The notes beneath the pieces are model-generated. The model saw only the letters and a list, made by a program, of their open reading frames with translations. It was not told where the DNA came from and did no database searches. A stretch of 64,000 nucleotides of DNA, from the NCBI GenBank assembly GCA_014896535.1, contig JADBKE010000009.1, positions 1-64,000 of the forward strand. Reading direction: 5' to 3'. Both the position numbers and the translations under genes were made by a program. This DNA comes from Candidatus Fermentithermobacillaceae bacterium. Its GTDB lineage: Bacteria; Bacillota; Sulfobacillia; Fermentithermobacillales; DUSS01. Positions 6,621-14,534 of this stretch are shown here, one piece after another (the first letter of the stretch is position 1; every line of letters begins with the position of its first letter).

Positions 6621-8207
6621 TCAACCTCTGGGCATGCAGTCGTGCCGCACGAACTGGGCAAATACCCATCCCTCCTGCCCGGAAGGCAGTCTTACCCGCA
6701 GCCAGTCCTGGGTTATCTCGAGCACCGACACCTGTGTCCCCATATTCACCTGCGTCAGGACGGGGTAAGTCATCCCGGGACCTTCCCTCACGTTCACCAG
6801 GTTGGCTGTGATCACGCCGGTACAGGCGGGCTTTCCGATGGCGACACCTGTGACCACGGTGATCTGCCTGGTTCTGAACACCCTGGCCGTGAGCATCAGG
6901 ACCTTGGTTACCATCACCGGTTCCCCGGCAGGCGGTACTTCGAAGTTCACGTGCTCAACCTGGACGAATACCCGGGCGACCATACCGGGTTTCGCCTCCG
7001 GCAGCACGACGAACTCGGAGAACGGCACGGTGAAGTGCAGCGTCCTGACCGTCTGGGTGGGCTCCATCAGGGGCTCGTAAATGATGCGCTGAGCGATGGC
7101 TCCGTCCACGATAATCTTTCCCGGGGCAACGATGGTTCGCTTGACTTCTGGAGTTGCCGAGTAATCGAGCACTGCGGCGACGGGCGGCTTTTCGGGCGGC
7201 ACATCCACGAGCTCGCGTACGATGGCTTGAGCGGTGTTCTCCCCCAGCACCTCCTGAATCCGCACGACTTCTTTTTCAACCTCGAGGCCGGCCACGCCCG
7301 TGACTCCCGTAACCACCTGCACCGTCTGTACTCGGACGACCTTGGCGGTAATTTCTATGACGATTCGAGCGGTAATACTTCTCGCGTTCCCCGTGACGTC
7401 CAGAGCCACGAACTCCACGGCCACATCGGCCACCACCGCCATGCCGGGTTGCGCGCCGGGGATTTCCACGAAGCGTTCGAAAGGTATGGTAAAGTGAGCC
7501 ACGTGCACGGTCTGGTACGGGGTCCTGGCTTCGTAGATCACCCGGAGACTTATCACACCGTTGACTATCACCTTATTGGGCAGCACCGTAGTCGTAGTCA
7601 CGTTGGCCGTGGCCACGTAATCGATGATGGAGACGACGGGCGGTTTCGCCTCCGGAACCGTAAGCTGCTCCCTCACCACCGCCTGCGCCGTGACCTCGCC
7701 CAGAACCGTCTCGGCCTTGATCATCTCTTTTGTGACCTGCAGGCCCGGAACGCCCGAGACGTCGGTCACCACTTCTACGATCGCGGTTCGCACCACTCGC
7801 ACGTACATGCTGAGCACCATGCGAACAACGACGGTCCTTCCATCGGGTCGCACTTCAAACGCGGCGTGTTCCACCGTGACAACGGGAACGGCGACCATGC
7901 CCGGCTCTGCACCCGGGATCTCCACGAATGTGCTGAACGGCACTTCTGCATGGAAGACGTGAACGGTCTGGTATGGGACTTGCGCTTCGTAAATGATGGA
8001 CAGGGAAACCACTCCGTCCACCACGACCTTGCCCGGCAGAACGGTCACTCTGGTGATGCGCGTCCTCGCCGCGAAGTCGATGACCGACGCCACTACGGGC
8101 TTGGGCTCGGGTACGGATACGGGTTCGGAGATAACCACCTGCGAGGTACCTTCGCCCACTACTTCTTCAAGGCGAAGCTCTTCCTTTCTGACTTCGAGGG
8201 TGTCCAC
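6621..8207 (-). CDS. Three-repeat SPOCS (DUF3794) protein with SH3b domain
   Basis: 528 residues from GTG 8207, which has GGAGGAGG seven bases upstream (a TTG at 8213 touches that site). Three repeats of about 140 residues (roughly 15-150, 160-300, 305-450) share the pattern of a VLGE opening, VLPGKVVVDGVVSL-type strand, YQTVHVFHAEVPF and FVEIPGAEPGM. These are SPOCS domains, known from SipL and SafA-related spore-coat assembly proteins. Residues 465-528 are an SH3b domain. SipL normally ends in LysM; here SH3b takes that place. It likely sits at the spore surface layers and bridges coat protein and peptidoglycan. Confidence 0.9.
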   Translation of the reverse strand: MDTLEVRKEELRLEEVVGEGTSQVVISEPVSVPEPKPVVASVIDFAARTRITRVTVLPGKVVVDGVVSLSIIYEAQVPYQTVHVFHAEVPFSTFVEIPGAEPGMVAVPVVTVEHAAFEVRPDGRTVVVRMVLSMYVRVVRTAIVEVVTDVSGVPGLQVTKEMIKAETVLGEVTAQAVVREQLTVPEAKPPVVSIIDYVATANVTTTTVLPNKVIVNGVISLRVIYEARTPYQTVHVAHFTIPFERFVEIPGAQPGMAVVADVAVEFVALDVTGNARSITARIVIEITAKVVRVQTVQVVTGVTGVAGLEVEKEVVRIQEVLGENTAQAIVRELVDVPPEKPPVAAVLDYSATPEVKRTIVAPGKIIVDGAIAQRIIYEPLMEPTQTVRTLHFTVPFSEFVVLPEAKPGMVARVFVQVEHVNFEVPPAGEPVMVTKVLMLTARVFRTRQITVVTGVAIGKPACTGVITANLVNVREGPGMTYPVLTQVNMGTQVSVLEITQDWLRVRLPSGQEGWVFAQFVRHDCMPRG

Positions 8208-8254
8208 GTTCAACCTCCTCCCCTCCTTTCCAAAAGGAGCGAGACTAGCACATT

Positions 8255-8323
8255 TATATGCTCAGGCCGGAATCGTGGTGAAACCGAAAATGTAACGCAC
8301 CTTCAGCAAATCCCGAGCATATA
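8255..8323. promoter_or_regulatory. Mirror-image GAGCATATA elements between two divergent genes
   Basis: The nine bases GAGCATATA occur on the plus strand at 8315-8323 and on the minus strand at 8263-8255. Each points at a gene: the GT2 gene starts 29 bases after the first, the SPOCS gene about 48 bases after the second. CATA-type -10 boxes are typical of mother-cell sporulation sigma factors (sigma E/K). No clear -35 was assigned, so the sigma factor is inferred. Confidence 0.4.
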
Positions 8324-8351
8324 CCGGGTCTGTGTAGGAGGTTTTCGGGTT

Positions 8352-9161
8352 ATGGGAATATGGGCGGCCGTCCCCGCAAAAGACGAAGAGAAAACCATAC
8401 TCCACGTCATCCAGTCCTGTCTTGCTGCCGGATCAAACCGGGTGGTGGTCGTCGTAAACGGATCGCGGGATCGCACAGAGGATCTGGTGCGGGAATTGCG
8501 CGATACCAGGGTGATGGCGCTGGTATTCAAAGAGCCTCTAGGTGTAGACGTCGCCAGATCTATATCCGCTTTCGAAGCTCTTCGCGGCGGCGCCGATTCG
8601 CTTCTCTTCTGCGACGGTGACCTTTCCGGTCCCATCTCGAAGTGTCTTGCGGAGCTGGCAGGCGCAATGGCATGGGGATACGATCTCGCCCTGACCGACT
8701 GTTATCCCAGAGGACTGCCGGGAACGGGGCTCGCCGCACAGGTCCTCAGAGCCCGGCGTCTGTTAAACGAGGGAATCGGCAGGGCCGACCTGGGCGTGGC
8801 TTCCATGTCCCACGGACCTTCGTGCGTGTCGCGGAGATTTCTCGAGACCGTTCCGCTGAAAGCCCTGGCCATACCCCCTCTCGCGCAGGCCCTGGCTGTG
8901 AAAAAAGGCCTGGTGGTGAAAATAGGTTCGTCCTTTGACCACCGGCTGCTTGGAGCCAGGGAAAAGGATGTGAGCCACGCAGAAAGCATAGCCGAATGCA
9001 TCATGGGGGATTCGGCGGAAGCCCTCGAAACTTTCCACGACAAATCCCCCACGCGCACATTCGAAGGAGCTGTGAGAATTGGCGCTGCGTCGGCCAGGAG
9101 ATGGGATATCCTCGAGAGCTACCTCACTCAGCCGTCAATCCGACGGCCTCAACCGCTTTGA
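8352..9161 (+). CDS. Family 2 (GT-A) glycosyltransferase
   Basis: 269 residues from ATG 8352 with TAGGAGG ten bases upstream. The N-terminus AAVPAKDEEKTI and VVVVVNGSRDRTEDL is the nucleotide-sugar site of GT2 enzymes; LLFCDGDLSG supplies the DxD metal motif. Only the GT-A core is present, with no membrane helix. The open frame continues far upstream through the antisense of the SPOCS gene, but that part is an artefact of codon bias. Divergent pairing with the SPOCS gene and shared promoter words suggest a spore-surface glycan role. Confidence 0.8.
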   Translation: MGIWAAVPAKDEEKTILHVIQSCLAAGSNRVVVVVNGSRDRTEDLVRELRDTRVMALVFKEPLGVDVARSISAFEALRGGADSLLFCDGDLSGPISKCLAELAGAMAWGYDLALTDCYPRGLPGTGLAAQVLRARRLLNEGIGRADLGVASMSHGPSCVSRRFLETVPLKALAIPPLAQALAVKKGLVVKIGSSFDHRLLGAREKDVSHAESIAECIMGDSAEALETFHDKSPTRTFEGAVRIGAASARRWDILESYLTQPSIRRPQPL

Positions 9162-9360
9162 TCTCCGGTACCTCTTGCTTCAGCACCCGCTCTATTCCGG
9201 CCTTCAACGTAAGCATGGCGAAAGGACAACCGCCGCAGCTTCCGGTCAGCTTCACCTTAACGACTCCATCCTCGGATACATCGATGAGTTCCACGTCGCC
9301 ACCGTCCGCCTGAAGCTGCGGGCGTATGCTCTCCAATGCCGCCTCGACTTTTTCCCTCAC
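9124..9360 (-). CDS. Nfu-type iron-sulfur scaffold (NifU C-terminal domain)
   Basis: 78 residues, GTG start with AGAGAGGG upstream. The whole protein is one NifU-like domain with the cluster ligands in GSCGGCPFAMLTL (CxxC) and the QADGGDVEL motif. It would carry a 4Fe-4S cluster to target proteins. Many Fe-S enzymes lie in this window. Its 3' end overlaps that of the convergent glycosyltransferase by 38 bases. Confidence 0.92.
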   Translation of the reverse strand: MREKVEAALESIRPQLQADGGDVELIDVSEDGVVKVKLTGSCGGCPFAMLTLKAGIERVLKQEVPEIKAVEAVGLTAE

Positions 9361-9457
9361 GATTCATCCCTCTCTTCGGCGTTTATCAGGTTCCACATAG
9401 CAGAACTACTTCGGGTCCGTCCCGGCCCGTCGCAGACGCCTTCTGCGAGCTCTTGAT

Positions 9458-11152
9458 TCACTCTTCTTCCGATTCCGCCGATCGCATCTCCTCCTCGATG
9501 GCGTCCAGGAAGGTTTGATCGTCCGTAAACCTCCGGGCCTGAGCCAGGCAGGTCTGGACGACCCTTCGACGGTGGGCGTGGTCGATCCTGAACGTACGGG
9601 TGGCTTTCAACAAGTCTTCCTCCGTTACCACCTCGGCTTGCCTGTCGAAGGCGATCCTCTTCGCCCTGGTCACCAGCTCCTCGAGTTCGGCGCAAGAGAA
9701 ATTTTTCGTCAGCGGAACTATCCGTTCACGCAGAAACTCCGCGGCGCTTTCCCGGCTCATCGACAGGGGTACCTTCGGCCTCCTCGAGCCCTCGGCGAAC
9801 CCCAGGTGGACCATGAGAACTTCCAGCCTGGCCTGGGGACCCGGATACAGGAAGGGGATCTTGTAATCGAAACGACCTGCCCGGGTGAAAGCTTCGTCCA
9901 GATGTTCCGGCACGTTCGTTGTCCCGACGATGATAGCTTCCCTGGAGGGATTGCCCAGCCATTCGAGGAACTGCGAGAACACCCGCTGGGTCTCCTCTTC
10001 GGCGGAACCCGCCGCCACCCCGGTTCTCTTGCCGAACCTGTCTATTTCATCCACGAACACTATGGCCGGCGACATCTTTTCCGCCATCGTAATGGCGCTC
10101 TTCATGTTCTGGCCGGATTCTCCCAGCCACTTTGAGTAGATGTTCTCGGTGACGAGATATATGAATGGCAGGTGAACTTCACTGGCCAGCGCATTGGCGA
10201 ACAGGCTCTTCCCGGTGCCCGGAGGCCCGAAAAAGAGCAAGCCCTTGGGAAGGGACAGGCCGAAGTGCCTCGCCCTGTCCGAGTGTTTGAGCACGTTCAC
10301 GATGTATTTGGACACGAACTCCTTGACGGCGTGATACCCGCCGATGTCGGCAAACCTCCACTGAGGGTCCCGAACTTCGAGGACTCTGGATTTCCTCACC
10401 ATGTCGGATTTGAGGTCCTTGATTATTCTGAGATCGAAATCCCGGGTTCTCTGGTACGACTCCAGAAGAATGCTTTCCGTCTGGTGCAGGTTGAGCCCGG
10501 CCAGGGCTACTGCGAGCTGCTCCGTCTTTTCCGAATCGCAGGGTACTTCCAGGTCACGAGCTACCATCTGGACCAGGCGCCTTCTCTCCTCATCGCTGGA
10601 GGGATCCACTGGGATGATGACGACGAAGTCTTTCGTGAAGTCGTCCATGATCCTCGACGCGTCCGAGGTGAGGATGAATACGGACGACCCGTTGGAAATC
10701 ACCTGGGGATCTATCGCCCAGGCCCGGATGGCCGACTGGAAACCGCTGTCGAACTCCCTCGTCTCGGACAGGTTCTGAATTATGAACACGGTCCTCCTTT
10801 GCCTGAGAAACCTGTCCACCTCTTTGAGGACCGCTCTCAGATTCTGGAGCTCGACCAACCCATCCGGCCGGATCCTCGAAGCGAGCGGGGTTTCGGACTG
10901 GAGCTTTTTCCTGTACGGTTCCGCAACCGGCCCCGTCGGAGACAGTTTCAACAACCCCAGACCGTCCCACGGATCGTAGATAAATACCTGGTCCACTCCG
11001 GAGAACTCCCCTGACGTGAGCACGTACAACTTAAGCTGAAGGATGCGCTTGGGGTCCACCGTCTCGAAGCACATCACCGGCGAGTAGTTGGCCTTTCGTT
11101 TAAGTAGAGCTTTTTGTATCCAGGAATCGTCCAGATAACTTGCGGTTTTCAT
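9458..11152 (-). CDS. Ycf46-like AAA ATPase
   Basis: 564 residues. Residues 1-250 resemble the degenerate N-terminal ATPase half of Ycf46 proteins (VFIIQNLSETREF, FVVIIPVDPSSDEERRRLV, LAGLNLHQTESILLES). Residues 265-500 are an active AAA module: Walker A GPPGTGKS (309-316), Walker B IVFVDEID (364-371), and FTRAGRFDYKIPF with the arginine finger. The C-terminal helical lid runs to about 560. Ycf46 in cyanobacteria is encoded near Ycf35 and affects photosynthesis-related traits; here the organism seems non-phototrophic. Last gene of the operon that starts at 12951, twelve bases after the 76-aa gene. Confidence 0.88.
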   Translation of the reverse strand: MKTASYLDDSWIQKALLKRKANYSPVMCFETVDPKRILQLKLYVLTSGEFSGVDQVFIYDPWDGLGLLKLSPTGPVAEPYRKKLQSETPLASRIRPDGLVELQNLRAVLKEVDRFLRQRRTVFIIQNLSETREFDSGFQSAIRAWAIDPQVISNGSSVFILTSDASRIMDDFTKDFVVIIPVDPSSDEERRRLVQMVARDLEVPCDSEKTEQLAVALAGLNLHQTESILLESYQRTRDFDLRIIKDLKSDMVRKSRVLEVRDPQWRFADIGGYHAVKEFVSKYIVNVLKHSDRARHFGLSLPKGLLFFGPPGTGKSLFANALASEVHLPFIYLVTENIYSKWLGESGQNMKSAITMAEKMSPAIVFVDEIDRFGKRTGVAAGSAEEETQRVFSQFLEWLGNPSREAIIVGTTNVPEHLDEAFTRAGRFDYKIPFLYPGPQARLEVLMVHLGFAEGSRRPKVPLSMSRESAAEFLRERIVPLTKNFSCAELEELVTRAKRIAFDRQAEVVTEEDLLKATRTFRIDHAHRRRVVQTCLAQARRFTDDQTFLDAIEEEMRSAESEEE

Positions 11153-11164
11153 TTGCCACCCCGT

Positions 11165-11395
11165 CTATCCGCAGAAGGATACAGTGCGCGCCCGCATTTC
11201 GAGGCCAAGCTTCTTTAAAGCCTCGACGAGCCGCGCTGTTTTGCCGTCGCCTTGTCTTTCAAATACGTCTATGCGACCGGCAGATACCCACACTTCGATA
11301 TATGAGCCGCCCGGCGATGAACGGACACCCGGGCCGGCATCGCACTCCATCGAGCCCATCGCCACGGTTCCGGGCAGGTCCCTGGCACCCGTCAT
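11165..11395 (-). CDS. 76-residue orphan in the Ycf46 operon
   Basis: ATG at 11395 overlaps the DUF2997 stop by four bases (ATGA) and has GGAGGTC at good spacing. The product is basic, with a predicted beta segment (SYIEVWVSAGRIDVFE) and a helix (LVEALKKLGLEMRAR). No family recognised. Position between DUF2997 and the ATPase, with tight coupling, implies a small partner or adaptor. Confidence 0.7.
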   Translation of the reverse strand: MTGARDLPGTVAMGSMECDAGPGVRSSPGGSYIEVWVSAGRIDVFERQGDGKTARLVEALKKLGLEMRARTVSFCG

Positions 11396-11619
11396 TCGGC
11401 CTTGACCTCCTTACGCCGTTCCTCCTCGGCGCCAAGTTCCCGTTTTATGCGCTCCACGTCCTTTCTTTCGATGGTAATCGGCACCGCCCACAGGCCGAGA
11501 CTCCTCAATATCCTCGTGAGGTTTTCTTCCTCATCGAGGCAAGTTTCGCCCGGAAAACCGAGGAAATCCATCTCGATTCGCCCGTTTTTGGAGATCTCTA
11601 TGCGAATAGTCCTGGTCAT
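11392..11619 (-). CDS. DUF2997 protein
   Basis: 75 residues from ATG 11619, one base after the DUF1257 stop. It opens with the beta hairpin MTRTIRIEISKNGRIEMDF followed by GFPGETCLDEEENLTRIL, the hallmark layout of DUF2997 with its conserved Cys. The tail is a charged helix. DUF2997 and DUF1257 are found side by side across cyanobacteria and anaerobes; their biochemical role is unknown. Confidence 0.85.
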   Translation of the reverse strand: MTRTIRIEISKNGRIEMDFLGFPGETCLDEEENLTRILRSLGLWAVPITIERKDVERIKRELGAEEERRKEVKAE

Positions 11620-11620
11620 C

Positions 11621-12067
11621 TCAGAGGACCCCCGTGACGACCACCTTCCTGCCCTCGGTCGCATGCTTTTCTTCTACCACATCAACCTGATAGTTTAGCA
11701 GGGAGAGGGCTTTGGACACGGCTATTGCCGAGTAGTTTTGAAGCACCCTGTCCTTGATTTCCTGAATGCGGCGCTCGTACCCTTCTAAGCCGTACGAATC
11801 GTACACGAACATCACCTGGCCCGTCTTCCTGTCGACGTTGATGCCGATTCCCCGGGGAATCTCCGGCGTAGAAATGACCCAGTCAGCGTAAAAGGCCCTT
11901 CCGTAAAAATCCTTTACGGTGTGAGAAACCTCGCCCATGAATTCCTCGGCTGCAGCCCACACCGCCTCGTGTAAAATGTCCCAACCGGGATCTTCCTCCA
12001 CGGACCGCCCCTCGGACAGAGCCTGGGTCAGCCGGATATCGGTCTTATACGAGCTTATCAGACTCAT
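11621..12067 (-). CDS. DUF1257 (Ycf35-like) protein
   Basis: 148 residues. Family features include the SLISSYKTDIR opening, VKDFYGRAFYADWVI, the IGINVDRKTGQVMFVYDSYG segment and a C-terminal ALSLLNYQVDVVEE helix. Ycf35 is a plastid and cyanobacterial protein of unknown biochemistry. The ATG overlaps the upstream membrane gene by four bases and GGAGGGAG provides the ribosome site, so the genes are translationally coupled. Confidence 0.88.
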   Translation of the reverse strand: MSLISSYKTDIRLTQALSEGRSVEEDPGWDILHEAVWAAAEEFMGEVSHTVKDFYGRAFYADWVISTPEIPRGIGINVDRKTGQVMFVYDSYGLEGYERRIQEIKDRVLQNYSAIAVSKALSLLNYQVDVVEEKHATEGRKVVVTGVL

Positions 12068-12951
12068 CCCCGCTCCCTCCAGGAAAGCCTTATTTTCCGT
12101 CTGAGGAACGCTTCCCTCTCCGCGCGCGCCCGGGCGACCTGTCTTGAAACCTCTTCCAGTCTTCGCCGCAGCGTTTCCTCGGATTCCTCACCGCTGCCTT
12201 CCGGCGGGCTGGACAACCAGGCGGAAGACCGGTCCTGGCGCGAGCTCCTGGCACCTTCCGCGTCAGGCCGGTGAGCTTTACGCGAAAGGATTTCCATCTG
12301 AATCAGAGCTATCCTCACCTCGGTCTGTTCCCGAAGAGCCTGTTCGGTCGGATGCTCATCCTCCAGCCTCTTCTTTTCGCTGAGGAGCTCCTCCAGGGAC
12401 ATTCGCGCGTACTGTTCCCTCCACGATTCAAGTTTCAGCGCGCGAACCCTCGTCATTCCTGCGCTCTCCACCCAGCTGTTCACGACCTGTCTGAGCCTCG
12501 AGATTTCCTCATCAGGTTCTTCCGCCTTCTCGACGCGGGTGACAGGGTACACGGGGCCCGCCGTACCCCTCGCGAGTTCGCTTAGGAAGCGACCGTACCG
12601 GAGGGAATCCAGCTTCCGGCGGAGACGTTCCTCTTCCTCTTCCAGCCCCGATATGGTTTCGTCGATATCAAGAGTGAGGATGGCCTTCCAGATCGACACC
12701 AGCGCAACGGAGAGAATGTCGAAGTACACTATTCCAACGCCAACAGCTGCGACGGCCTGAACCTTGGCGGACCACCCCGGCCCGAACATGCGGGCAGTTT
12801 GCCATCCGAGCGCCAGAGCGATGAGGGCGACGACGAGCAAAAGCAGCCTCGATTCGGAGGTGTGTTCAAACTTGGTCTTGAGGGTTTGGACCCAGGCGGC
12901 GGTCCCCCATCCGACCACGACAAAGGACACCAGCACCCAGAAGATCCACAT
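12064..12951 (-). CDS. Membrane protein with cytosolic coiled coil, first gene of Ycf46 operon
   Basis: 295 residues from ATG 12951 (AAAGGGGGG upstream). Three membrane helices lie at about 1-22, 37-58 and 68-95 (MWIFWVLVSFVVVGWG, LLLLVVALIALALGW, VQAVAAVGVGIVYFDI). Residues 100-295 are a long Glu/Arg-rich region with coiled-coil segments (ISGLEEEEERLRRKLDSL, LEEVSRQVARARAEREAFL). It could tether the soluble operon products to the membrane. No family recognised. Confidence 0.75.
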   Translation of the reverse strand: MWIFWVLVSFVVVGWGTAAWVQTLKTKFEHTSESRLLLLVVALIALALGWQTARMFGPGWSAKVQAVAAVGVGIVYFDILSVALVSIWKAILTLDIDETISGLEEEEERLRRKLDSLRYGRFLSELARGTAGPVYPVTRVEKAEEPDEEISRLRQVVNSWVESAGMTRVRALKLESWREQYARMSLEELLSEKKRLEDEHPTEQALREQTEVRIALIQMEILSRKAHRPDAEGARSSRQDRSSAWLSSPPEGSGEESEETLRRRLEEVSRQVARARAEREAFLRRKIRLSWRERG

Positions 12952-13211: not shown

Positions 13212-14246
13212 TCATTTTCCGCTCAAGAAAGACCTGGCCAACCACAGGTGGTCCGTACCCGGCGGATCTAAAGCTTCCTCGCCCGATTCCCTGAGGACCA
13301 CCCGTCTCGCGTCGGCGATAATCTTTCCTATGACCGCGGCGTTAATTCCGTTTTCCCGGTAAGCTTTAACCAGGGAATCGCCGTCCGGATGCGTGACGAT
13401 AAGGCATCCCGAGGAGGTCAGCTTTAACGGGTCTATTCCGGTTACGGAGGCGACTTGGCTCGTAATCGGAAGCACCGGAATCGCTTTCGCGTCCACGATA
13501 ACACCCGAACCCGAAGCTTCGCACAACTCGTAGACAGCCCCGAGGACGCCCCCTTCGGTGACGTCGTGACAGGCCGTAGCTCCGTTCGCAGCGGCGATCA
13601 TGCCGTCCCTCGTGACGCTCACCATGGCGAAAAGCTTTTCGCCCTCAGCGACCAGGGATTTTTCGTCATTGGCCGGGTCGGGCAATAGCCGGGCAAGTTG
13701 ACCCGGAAAGTCCATCAGCAACACAGCAGTGCCCTCAAGACCCGCCCACTTTGTGACCACGATGTCGTCACCGGGCCTGGCGCCGGAGGAACGCAGAATC
13801 CTCTTTCCCTTCGTCTTCCCGATGGCCACCACCGCGAGAATCGGATGCTGGAGCCCCGGAGTCACCTCAGTGTGGCCTCCCGCCACCGTCACGTTTTCTT
13901 CGAGACAGGCCTGGTGTATCTCGTCCACCAATCCTTCGAGGTCCTCAAGCCGGGCCCCCTCCGGTAAGAGTATCGTGACGAGAACCGCCACCGGTTCTGC
14001 TCCTTTGGCAGCGACGTCGTTCAGGGCAACTTTCACGCCCAGCCAGCCTTGCTTTCTGGATGCACCGGTTATCGGATCGATGCTCGCCACGACCAGTTCC
14101 GATCCCATGTCCAGGACGGTGCTATCCTCGCCTATGCTGGGGGGCACGATCATCTCTGCTCGAAGAGCACCGGTACGGCGGAACACGATGTTGCGCAATA
14201 AAGTTGTTCCGATCTTTCCCGTAGACAAACGCTCGCTAGTATCCAC
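13212..14246 (-). CDS. AIR synthase-like / HypE-related protein
   Basis: About 344 residues. It has the PurM fold: IGEDSTVLDMG (ATP and metal site), the VKVALNDVAAKGAEPVAVLV helix, VTVAGGHTEVTPG and HDVTEGGVLGAVYELCEAS in the C-terminal half. HypE dehydrates the carbamoyl group for hydrogenase cyanide ligands, but this protein lacks the Cys-terminated HypE tail, so it is probably a related factor of unknown substrate. Start is uncertain: GTG 14246 has AAAGG at better spacing than ATG 14252. No hyp genes lie nearby. Confidence 0.8.
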   Translation of the reverse strand: MDTSERLSTGKIGTTLLRNIVFRRTGALRAEMIVPPSIGEDSTVLDMGSELVVASIDPITGASRKQGWLGVKVALNDVAAKGAEPVAVLVTILLPEGARLEDLEGLVDEIHQACLEENVTVAGGHTEVTPGLQHPILAVVAIGKTKGKRILRSSGARPGDDIVVTKWAGLEGTAVLLMDFPGQLARLLPDPANDEKSLVAEGEKLFAMVSVTRDGMIAAANGATACHDVTEGGVLGAVYELCEASGSGVIVDAKAIPVLPITSQVASVTGIDPLKLTSSGCLIVTHPDGDSLVKAYRENGINAAVIGKIIADARRVVLRESGEEALDPPGTDHLWLARSFLSGK

Positions 14247-14534
14247 TGGCATCACCTTTACTCTTGCCTGCGGTTTGTTGGAGCGATCTCACGGCCTCGG
14301 ATGTACCGTATGAGATCCTCTCTCGTCCCTCTTTGATACGCGCCCCAACGCCCGCGCTCCTGTCCGGCTACGAGTTTAAGTGCTCCTGCAACGAAAGGTC
14401 GCCTGCGGACATCGTTGACTTCCGAATCGTTTTGAGCTTAGCATATTGCGAATGTACTTCGGACATGGTTCCAACAGGGGCTCGTGGCCACCAGGCAATG
14501 GATACCACGGTCACGTCCGCCGGAGGGATTGCGT

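Follow-up and report, generated by a model that had tools for sequence, protein, structure and literature searches.

The conserved plastid and cyanobacterial genes for which no role is known have long included Ycf46 and Ycf35. In cyanobacteria, 'cluster g' has been described as duf2997-ycf35(DUF1257)-fed7 (PMC4284462), and the ferredoxin Fed7, which binds a DnaJ protein, plays a part under oxidative, metal and iron stress. The antitoxin of the SGI1 sgiAT system is an AAA+ protein of the SpoVK/Ycf46/Vps4 superfamily (PMC10954446). Here, we describe a five-gene operon with relatives of Ycf46, Ycf35 and DUF2997 in a 64,000-nucleotide stretch of DNA (contig JADBKE010000009.1, hereafter the window) from a Candidatus Fermentithermobacillaceae bacterium of the Bacillota. 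The operon is real, conserved and uncharacterised, and it also encodes a membrane protein of 295 amino acids (aa) and a 76-aa protein that ends in Cys-Gly. We propose, with a probability of roughly 0.55, that its products assemble into one AAA+ complex that is tethered to the membrane, remodels proteins and includes a small adaptor bearing a thiol.

The five genes lie on the minus strand, from position 12951 of the window down to 9458, and are transcribed in the order membrane protein, Ycf35-like, DUF2997-like, 76-aa protein and AAA. Their junctions are a 4-nucleotide overlap, a 1-nucleotide gap, a 4-nucleotide overlap and a 12-nucleotide gap, in agreement with the tight five-gene set described in an earlier note made from the sequence alone. 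The start of the 76-aa gene is preceded by AAGGAGGT, and a promoter scan gave nothing exceeding chance. The host, which the same note took for a sporulating non-phototroph, indeed encodes SpoIVA, and its assembly (92.6% complete) contains no match to PsaA/B or BchN. The nearest named records match its Ycf35-like protein at 93-95%, in keeping with a genome from the Ca. Fermentithermobacillaceae or a very close lineage.

We read 41 loci in detail, namely the window and 40 relatives. The gene order was kept throughout, with the 76-aa gene present in 40 of the 41. Two loci that appeared to be out of order are explained by over-long starts of open reading frames, and in L038 an IS607-type insertion (resolvase and TnpB, 7982-9817) separates the gene for the Cys-Gly (CG) protein from that for the AAA. 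Across 101 related genomes, the Ycf35-like protein was found in 45, the operon AAA (E ≤ 1e-100) in exactly those 45, and the membrane protein in all 45 and a few others. This perfect co-occurrence and the constant order uphold the conserved adjacency on which the earlier proposal hinged, and the adjacency is far beyond chance. The intact unit is spread over 33 genera. When 399 genomes of the phylum were sampled, the operon's Ycf35-like family occurred in five, all of the host's class. Since the form with the membrane protein and the CG protein was found only in that class, it is a lineage-specific variant, class-level and patchily kept.

The AAA carries Walker A and B motifs, sensor 1 and both arginine fingers that are conserved in 23 of 23 relatives. 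Judged by these motifs, it appears to have the intact motor features of substrate-threading AAA+ proteins, aromatic pore loop included; we take its KWLGES-type pore loop to be like that of Vps4 and CDC48 D2. By HHalign, it aligns across 444 columns with a set of plasmid AAA proteins, which we take to be Ycf46-like by their Ycf46 motifs. The HHalign values here and below are for single pairs and uncorrected for database search, so shuffled nulls were used. The N-terminal part alone still matched the plasmid set (HHalign probability, P, 90; E 1.7e-6, 183 columns), with P ≤ 5 for CDC48, FtsH and unrelated controls, of which CDC48 and FtsH were single sequences and hence less sensitive. In the AAA-domain tree, the Ycf46-like proteins group together with full support (100/100) and apart from the clade of the operon AAAs, with the CDC48 and FtsH domains outside the operon clade; the branches are long and their joint order is unsure. 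A position nested inside the Ycf46-like clade is not supported, and a sister position is possible. The earlier name 'Ycf46-like AAA' thus suits the N-terminal region, whereas the AAA domain belongs to a clade separate from the plasmid and phage proteins. Because of this combination, the operon AAA is best called Ycf46-related on sequence grounds, and not Ycf46 proper.

Pfam barely detects the two following families here. DUF1257 (PF06868) was unmatched in the Ycf35-like protein at E ≤ 10 and in the genome at E ≤ 0.001, and DUF2997 (PF11211) reached E 2e-4 in the 75-aa protein, with 21.5 bits against a cut-off of 24.1 that the equivalent protein of genome G040 exceeds. For this reason, genuine DUF1257 and DUF2997 proteins were gathered from plasmid and mobile-element loci for profile-profile comparison. 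The Ycf35-like family matched DUF1257 with P 98.3 (E 2e-14, 113 columns) and a score of 86.6, compared to a shuffled mean of 11.8 and maximum of 18.8. The DUF2997-like family matched DUF2997 with P 97.7 (E 2e-12), and unrelated control pairs gave P 0.3 and 1.4. On these profiles, both labels of the earlier note appear to hold at the level of remote homology only, and at that level the profile-profile relationship is strong. The cysteine of the DUF2997-like GxxC motif is also found in nearly all plasmid and phage DUF2997 proteins. Solved structures offered no credible relative for the Ycf35-like, DUF1257, DUF2997-like or CG families, and a fold search with the Ycf35-like model gave no significant PDB match. 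Its one viral match, A0A7S5REL3 (147 aa, E 3e-5), is as long as the DUF1257 protein of Rhizobium phage RHph_I4, with which it may be identical. For the small operon proteins, Pfam, NCBIfam, PHROGs and PADLOC gave no usable names apart from the weak DUF2997 match.

The 76-aa protein ends exactly in Cys-Gly-COOH in 40 of 40 loci. It is otherwise variable (mean column identity 27%, 25 aligned), and one internal glycine is the sole other invariant position. It is modelled as beta-beta-alpha-beta with a flexible tail, at a modest predicted local distance difference test score (pLDDT) of 72, and a fold search with this model gave nothing significant and no beta-grasp match. Its family matched the operon's DUF2997-like family with P 84 and a score of 30.8, above all 60 shuffles (maximum 19.1), and the plasmid DUF2997 proteins with only P 11. 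The protein is therefore probably a diverged DUF2997 relative and not the 'orphan' of the earlier note, which had overlooked the CG end. It is without the GxxC cysteine, and its sole conserved cysteine is the C-terminal one. In locus L079, a fused DUF1257-DUF2997 protein beside a Ycf46-like AAA combines the GxxC cysteine with a CG end; used as a query, this fusion found nothing in phages. Because both cysteines occur there in one polypeptide, the fusion suggests that they may work together and that the operon has split them over two proteins. We also observed a lone 76-aa DUF2997 protein (L081:6800-7030) that ends in LCG and is without the GxxC cysteine. In the plasmid and phage DUF2997 proteins of L090, L099, L101 and L106, the last residue is a tryptophan (QSW, PAW, VGW), which could be a further tail motif.

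Hydropathy places three hydrophobic helices of the membrane protein within residues 1-95, followed by a coiled-coil or helical cytoplasmic part. W160, R168, R170, W177 and L289 are invariant, and the protein had no usable match in Pfam, NCBIfam or PHROGs. Homologues without the remaining operon were seen at L116:5439-6275, L117:5221-6030 and L119:1600-2433, the last near an Nfu gene, as though a deletion had removed the operon core.

Table 1 Features of the operon in the window.
Feature	Coordinates	Strand	Basis
Membrane protein, 295 aa	12064..12951	-	Hydropathy; in all 45 operon-bearing genomes
DUF1257/Ycf35-like protein, 148 aa	11621..12067	-	HHalign against genuine DUF1257; AlphaFold model, pLDDT 91
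DUF2997-like protein, 75 aa	11392..11619	-	Pfam PF11211 below cut-off; HHalign P 97.7
Codon of the invariant Cys27 in the DUF2997-like protein (GFxGxxC motif)	11539..11541	-	25/25 in alignment
76-aa protein, probable diverged DUF2997-like paralog	11165..11395	-	HHalign against DUF2997-like family; model
Codons of invariant C-terminal Cys-Gly, directly before stop	11168..11173	-	40/40 loci
AAA+ ATPase, 564 aa, Ycf46-like degenerate N-terminal region	9458..11152	-	Pfam AAA, E 1e-31; HHalign
Walker A GPPGTGKS, residues 309-316	10205..10228	-	Invariant or almost invariant across 23 relatives
Pore loop 1 YSKWLGES, residues 339-346	10115..10138	-	Aromatic in 23/23
Walker B FVDEID, residues 366-371	10040..10057	-	Conserved in 23/23

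From the intact AAA motor with its aromatic pore loop and the tightly linked three-helix membrane protein, we infer a remodelling machine at the membrane, as the earlier note had proposed. A hexameric AAA+ motor would remodel or unfold a client protein at the cytoplasmic membrane, where the complex would be held by the cytoplasmic helical part of the three-helix protein. The Ycf35-like and DUF2997-like proteins would form the adaptor that recognises the client, with the 76-aa subunit offering its flexible tail ending in Cys-Gly. This tail might bring a thiol close to the DUF2997 GxxC cysteine for metal, iron-sulfur or disulfide chemistry, or it might be engaged by the motor. ATP hydrolysis would then drive the client or the adaptor through the aromatic pore loop. 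The sequences show an intact motor, co-inheritance in fixed order, homology to DUF1257 and DUF2997 and conserved cysteines, all of which favour such a complex, as do the L079 fusion, the recurrence of AAA, DUF1257 and DUF2997 on mobile elements, the small hydrophobic protein found with some of those sets, and the iron-sulfur neighbours fed7 and NrdG.

Several observations weigh against this proposal. The outer neighbours of the operon vary within the host's class, and one of the 41 loci, L059, is without the CG protein. Most plasmid and phage DUF2997 proteins likewise are without a CG end. The aromatic residue of the pore loop is absent from most plasmid Ycf46-like AAAs, so threading may not extend to the whole group. 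The membrane protein persists without the other operon genes in genomes G031, G051, G066 and G088; because it is kept alone in these few, it may serve a separate function and is not to be treated as inseparable from the complex.

We also compared 22 loci with a Ycf46-like AAA, all on plasmids or phages except for one on a mobile-element-like contig. A profile search placed DUF1257 and DUF2997 within about 2 kb of the Ycf46-like AAA in 15 of the 22, a descriptive ratio, since the loci were selected by rank and three of them had been reached through DUF1257 or DUF2997, two of the three being near-copies. The 15 come from about six phyla: Nitrospirota, Aquificota, Bacillota, Actinomycetota and Pseudomonadota, with their phages, and Cyanobacteriota. 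This recurrence on plasmids and phages of many phyla, together with the chromosomal operon in a non-phototroph, supports a general association of AAA, DUF1257 and DUF2997 that is not tied to photosynthesis, as the earlier note had held. As far as the literature searched shows, the recurrent association is undescribed; a search reaching little subscription literature returned no published description of the set. Scans of viral contigs found few relatives.

The plasmid and phage sets have companions of their own. A small hydrophobic protein lies within or beside the set in Bacillus, Paenibacillus, Rhodococcus and Arthrobacter. An NrdG-like radical-SAM gene directly follows DUF2997 in Paenibacillus polymyxa, and such genes lie near the set in Rhodococcus (same run) and Arthrobacter; in Treponema, one precedes an AAA without DUF1257 or DUF2997. 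In phages of Rhizobium, Aeromonas and Rhodobacter and in a Rhizobium plasmid, the Ycf46-like AAA is separated from DUF1257 by a further protein of ~210-230 aa (L101:4546-5184, L106:4753-5415, L099:4753-5379, L103:4485-5177). Another fused DUF1257-DUF2997 protein (L080:6591-7259) comes from a region that resembles a phage or plasmid and also encodes a ThiF-like protein, the stretch read being without a Ycf46-like AAA.

Around the operon itself, recurrent neighbours are ordinary chromosomal genes. A constant outer neighbour was considered and rejected, as the neighbours differ between loci. An Nfu-type protein is encoded nearby in 16 of the 41 loci and a HypE/ThiL-like AIR-synthase protein just upstream in 15. 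In the window, an AIR-synthase-fold protein (13212-14255, minus strand) scores between HypE, ThiL and SelD, under the cut-off of each. Downstream, a 530-aa protein (6621-8213, minus strand) has three SipL/SPOCS domains and a C-terminal SH3 domain, and similar proteins lie downstream of the operon in some other loci.

A role in maturation or redox chemistry is the main rival to a remodelling complex, although we consider it doubtful. The GxxC cysteine and the CG tail would here carry a metal, a cluster or a sulfur species, and the AAA and Ycf35-like proteins would load or repair a client enzyme, like AAA-type activases. The conserved cysteines of the DUF2997-like and 76-aa proteins fit such a system, as do iron-sulfur neighbours elsewhere, namely fed7 in cyanobacteria (PMC4284462) and the NrdG-like genes of Paenibacillus and Rhodococcus. 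The radical-SAM genes, however, occur in only some plasmid loci, and the Nfu and AIR-synthase neighbours that would also favour it occur in only some members of the class, where the synteny may simply be inherited. Conserved cluster motifs with several cysteines, CxxC among them, are absent from all three small operon proteins. The tail could instead be activated and then either attached to a target or charged with sulfur, as in a ubiquitin-like or ThiS-like carrier. The protein is small and rich in beta structure, and its flexible tail closes with a fully conserved dipeptide ending in Gly, which invites this comparison. The dipeptide, however, is CG and not GG, the recurrent operon neighbours showed no E1/ThiF-like or peptidase gene, and the fold search (modest model, pLDDT 72) matched no beta-grasp carrier. 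We hold a carrier role to be improbable.

Similarly little credence is given to the idea that the chromosome captured the operon as a system of anti-phage defence or of a mobile element. Plasmids and phages commonly carry the triad, the sgiAT antitoxin of SGI1 is an AAA+ protein of the SpoVK/Ycf46/Vps4 superfamily (PMC10954446), and padloc reported weak similarity to IetA. That similarity runs through the AAA domain only, with the other four proteins unmatched, and the unit is intact in 33 genera among ordinary chromosomal neighbours. A sporulation machine might be suspected in a host with SpoIVA and a SipL-domain protein downstream of the operon. The counts reject this link, as 40 of 89 SpoIVA-positive and 5 of 12 SpoIVA-negative genomes carry the operon, and we regard a sporulation machine as very improbable.

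The shared travel of the Ycf46, Ycf35 and DUF2997 families in non-photosynthetic bacteria, plasmids and phages argues for one pathway, and the gene sets are small enough to purify. To these, the operon adds two clues, a dedicated membrane protein and a subunit constrained absolutely only at one glycine and the C-terminal Cys-Gly, both testable by single mutations. We tentatively suggest that Ycf46-related AAAs, Ycf35/DUF1257 and DUF2997 could constitute one unrecognised AAA+ machine of phages, plasmids, cyanobacteria and plastids, and Bacillota. The DUF2997-type cysteines (GxxC, here also CG) would be its chemical heart, and it would be fixed to the membrane in this lineage.

Compared to described systems, the operon combines features of several. 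Its AAA shares a degenerate N-terminal region and one active AAA domain with plastid and cyanobacterial Ycf46, but falls outside the Ycf46-like clade and has a Vps4/CDC48-like aromatic pore loop. With Vps4/CDC48-type unfoldases it has in common the KWLGES-type pore loop and the Walker and arginine-finger set, whereas its N-terminal region and partners are different. The plasmid and phage sets of Ca. Manganitrophus, Paenibacillus polymyxa pPPM1a and Rhizobium phage RHph_I4 contain the same three families and a homologous AAA N-terminal region. In these sets, however, the AAA belongs to another clade, a homologue of the 295-aa membrane protein was not seen, and the DUF2997 proteins are without the CG end, the L079 fusion excepted. 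In cyanobacterial 'cluster g', DUF2997 and Ycf35 are adjacent as in the operon; as described, its partner is a ferredoxin, whereas the AAA, the membrane protein and the CG protein are present only in the operon (PMC4284462).

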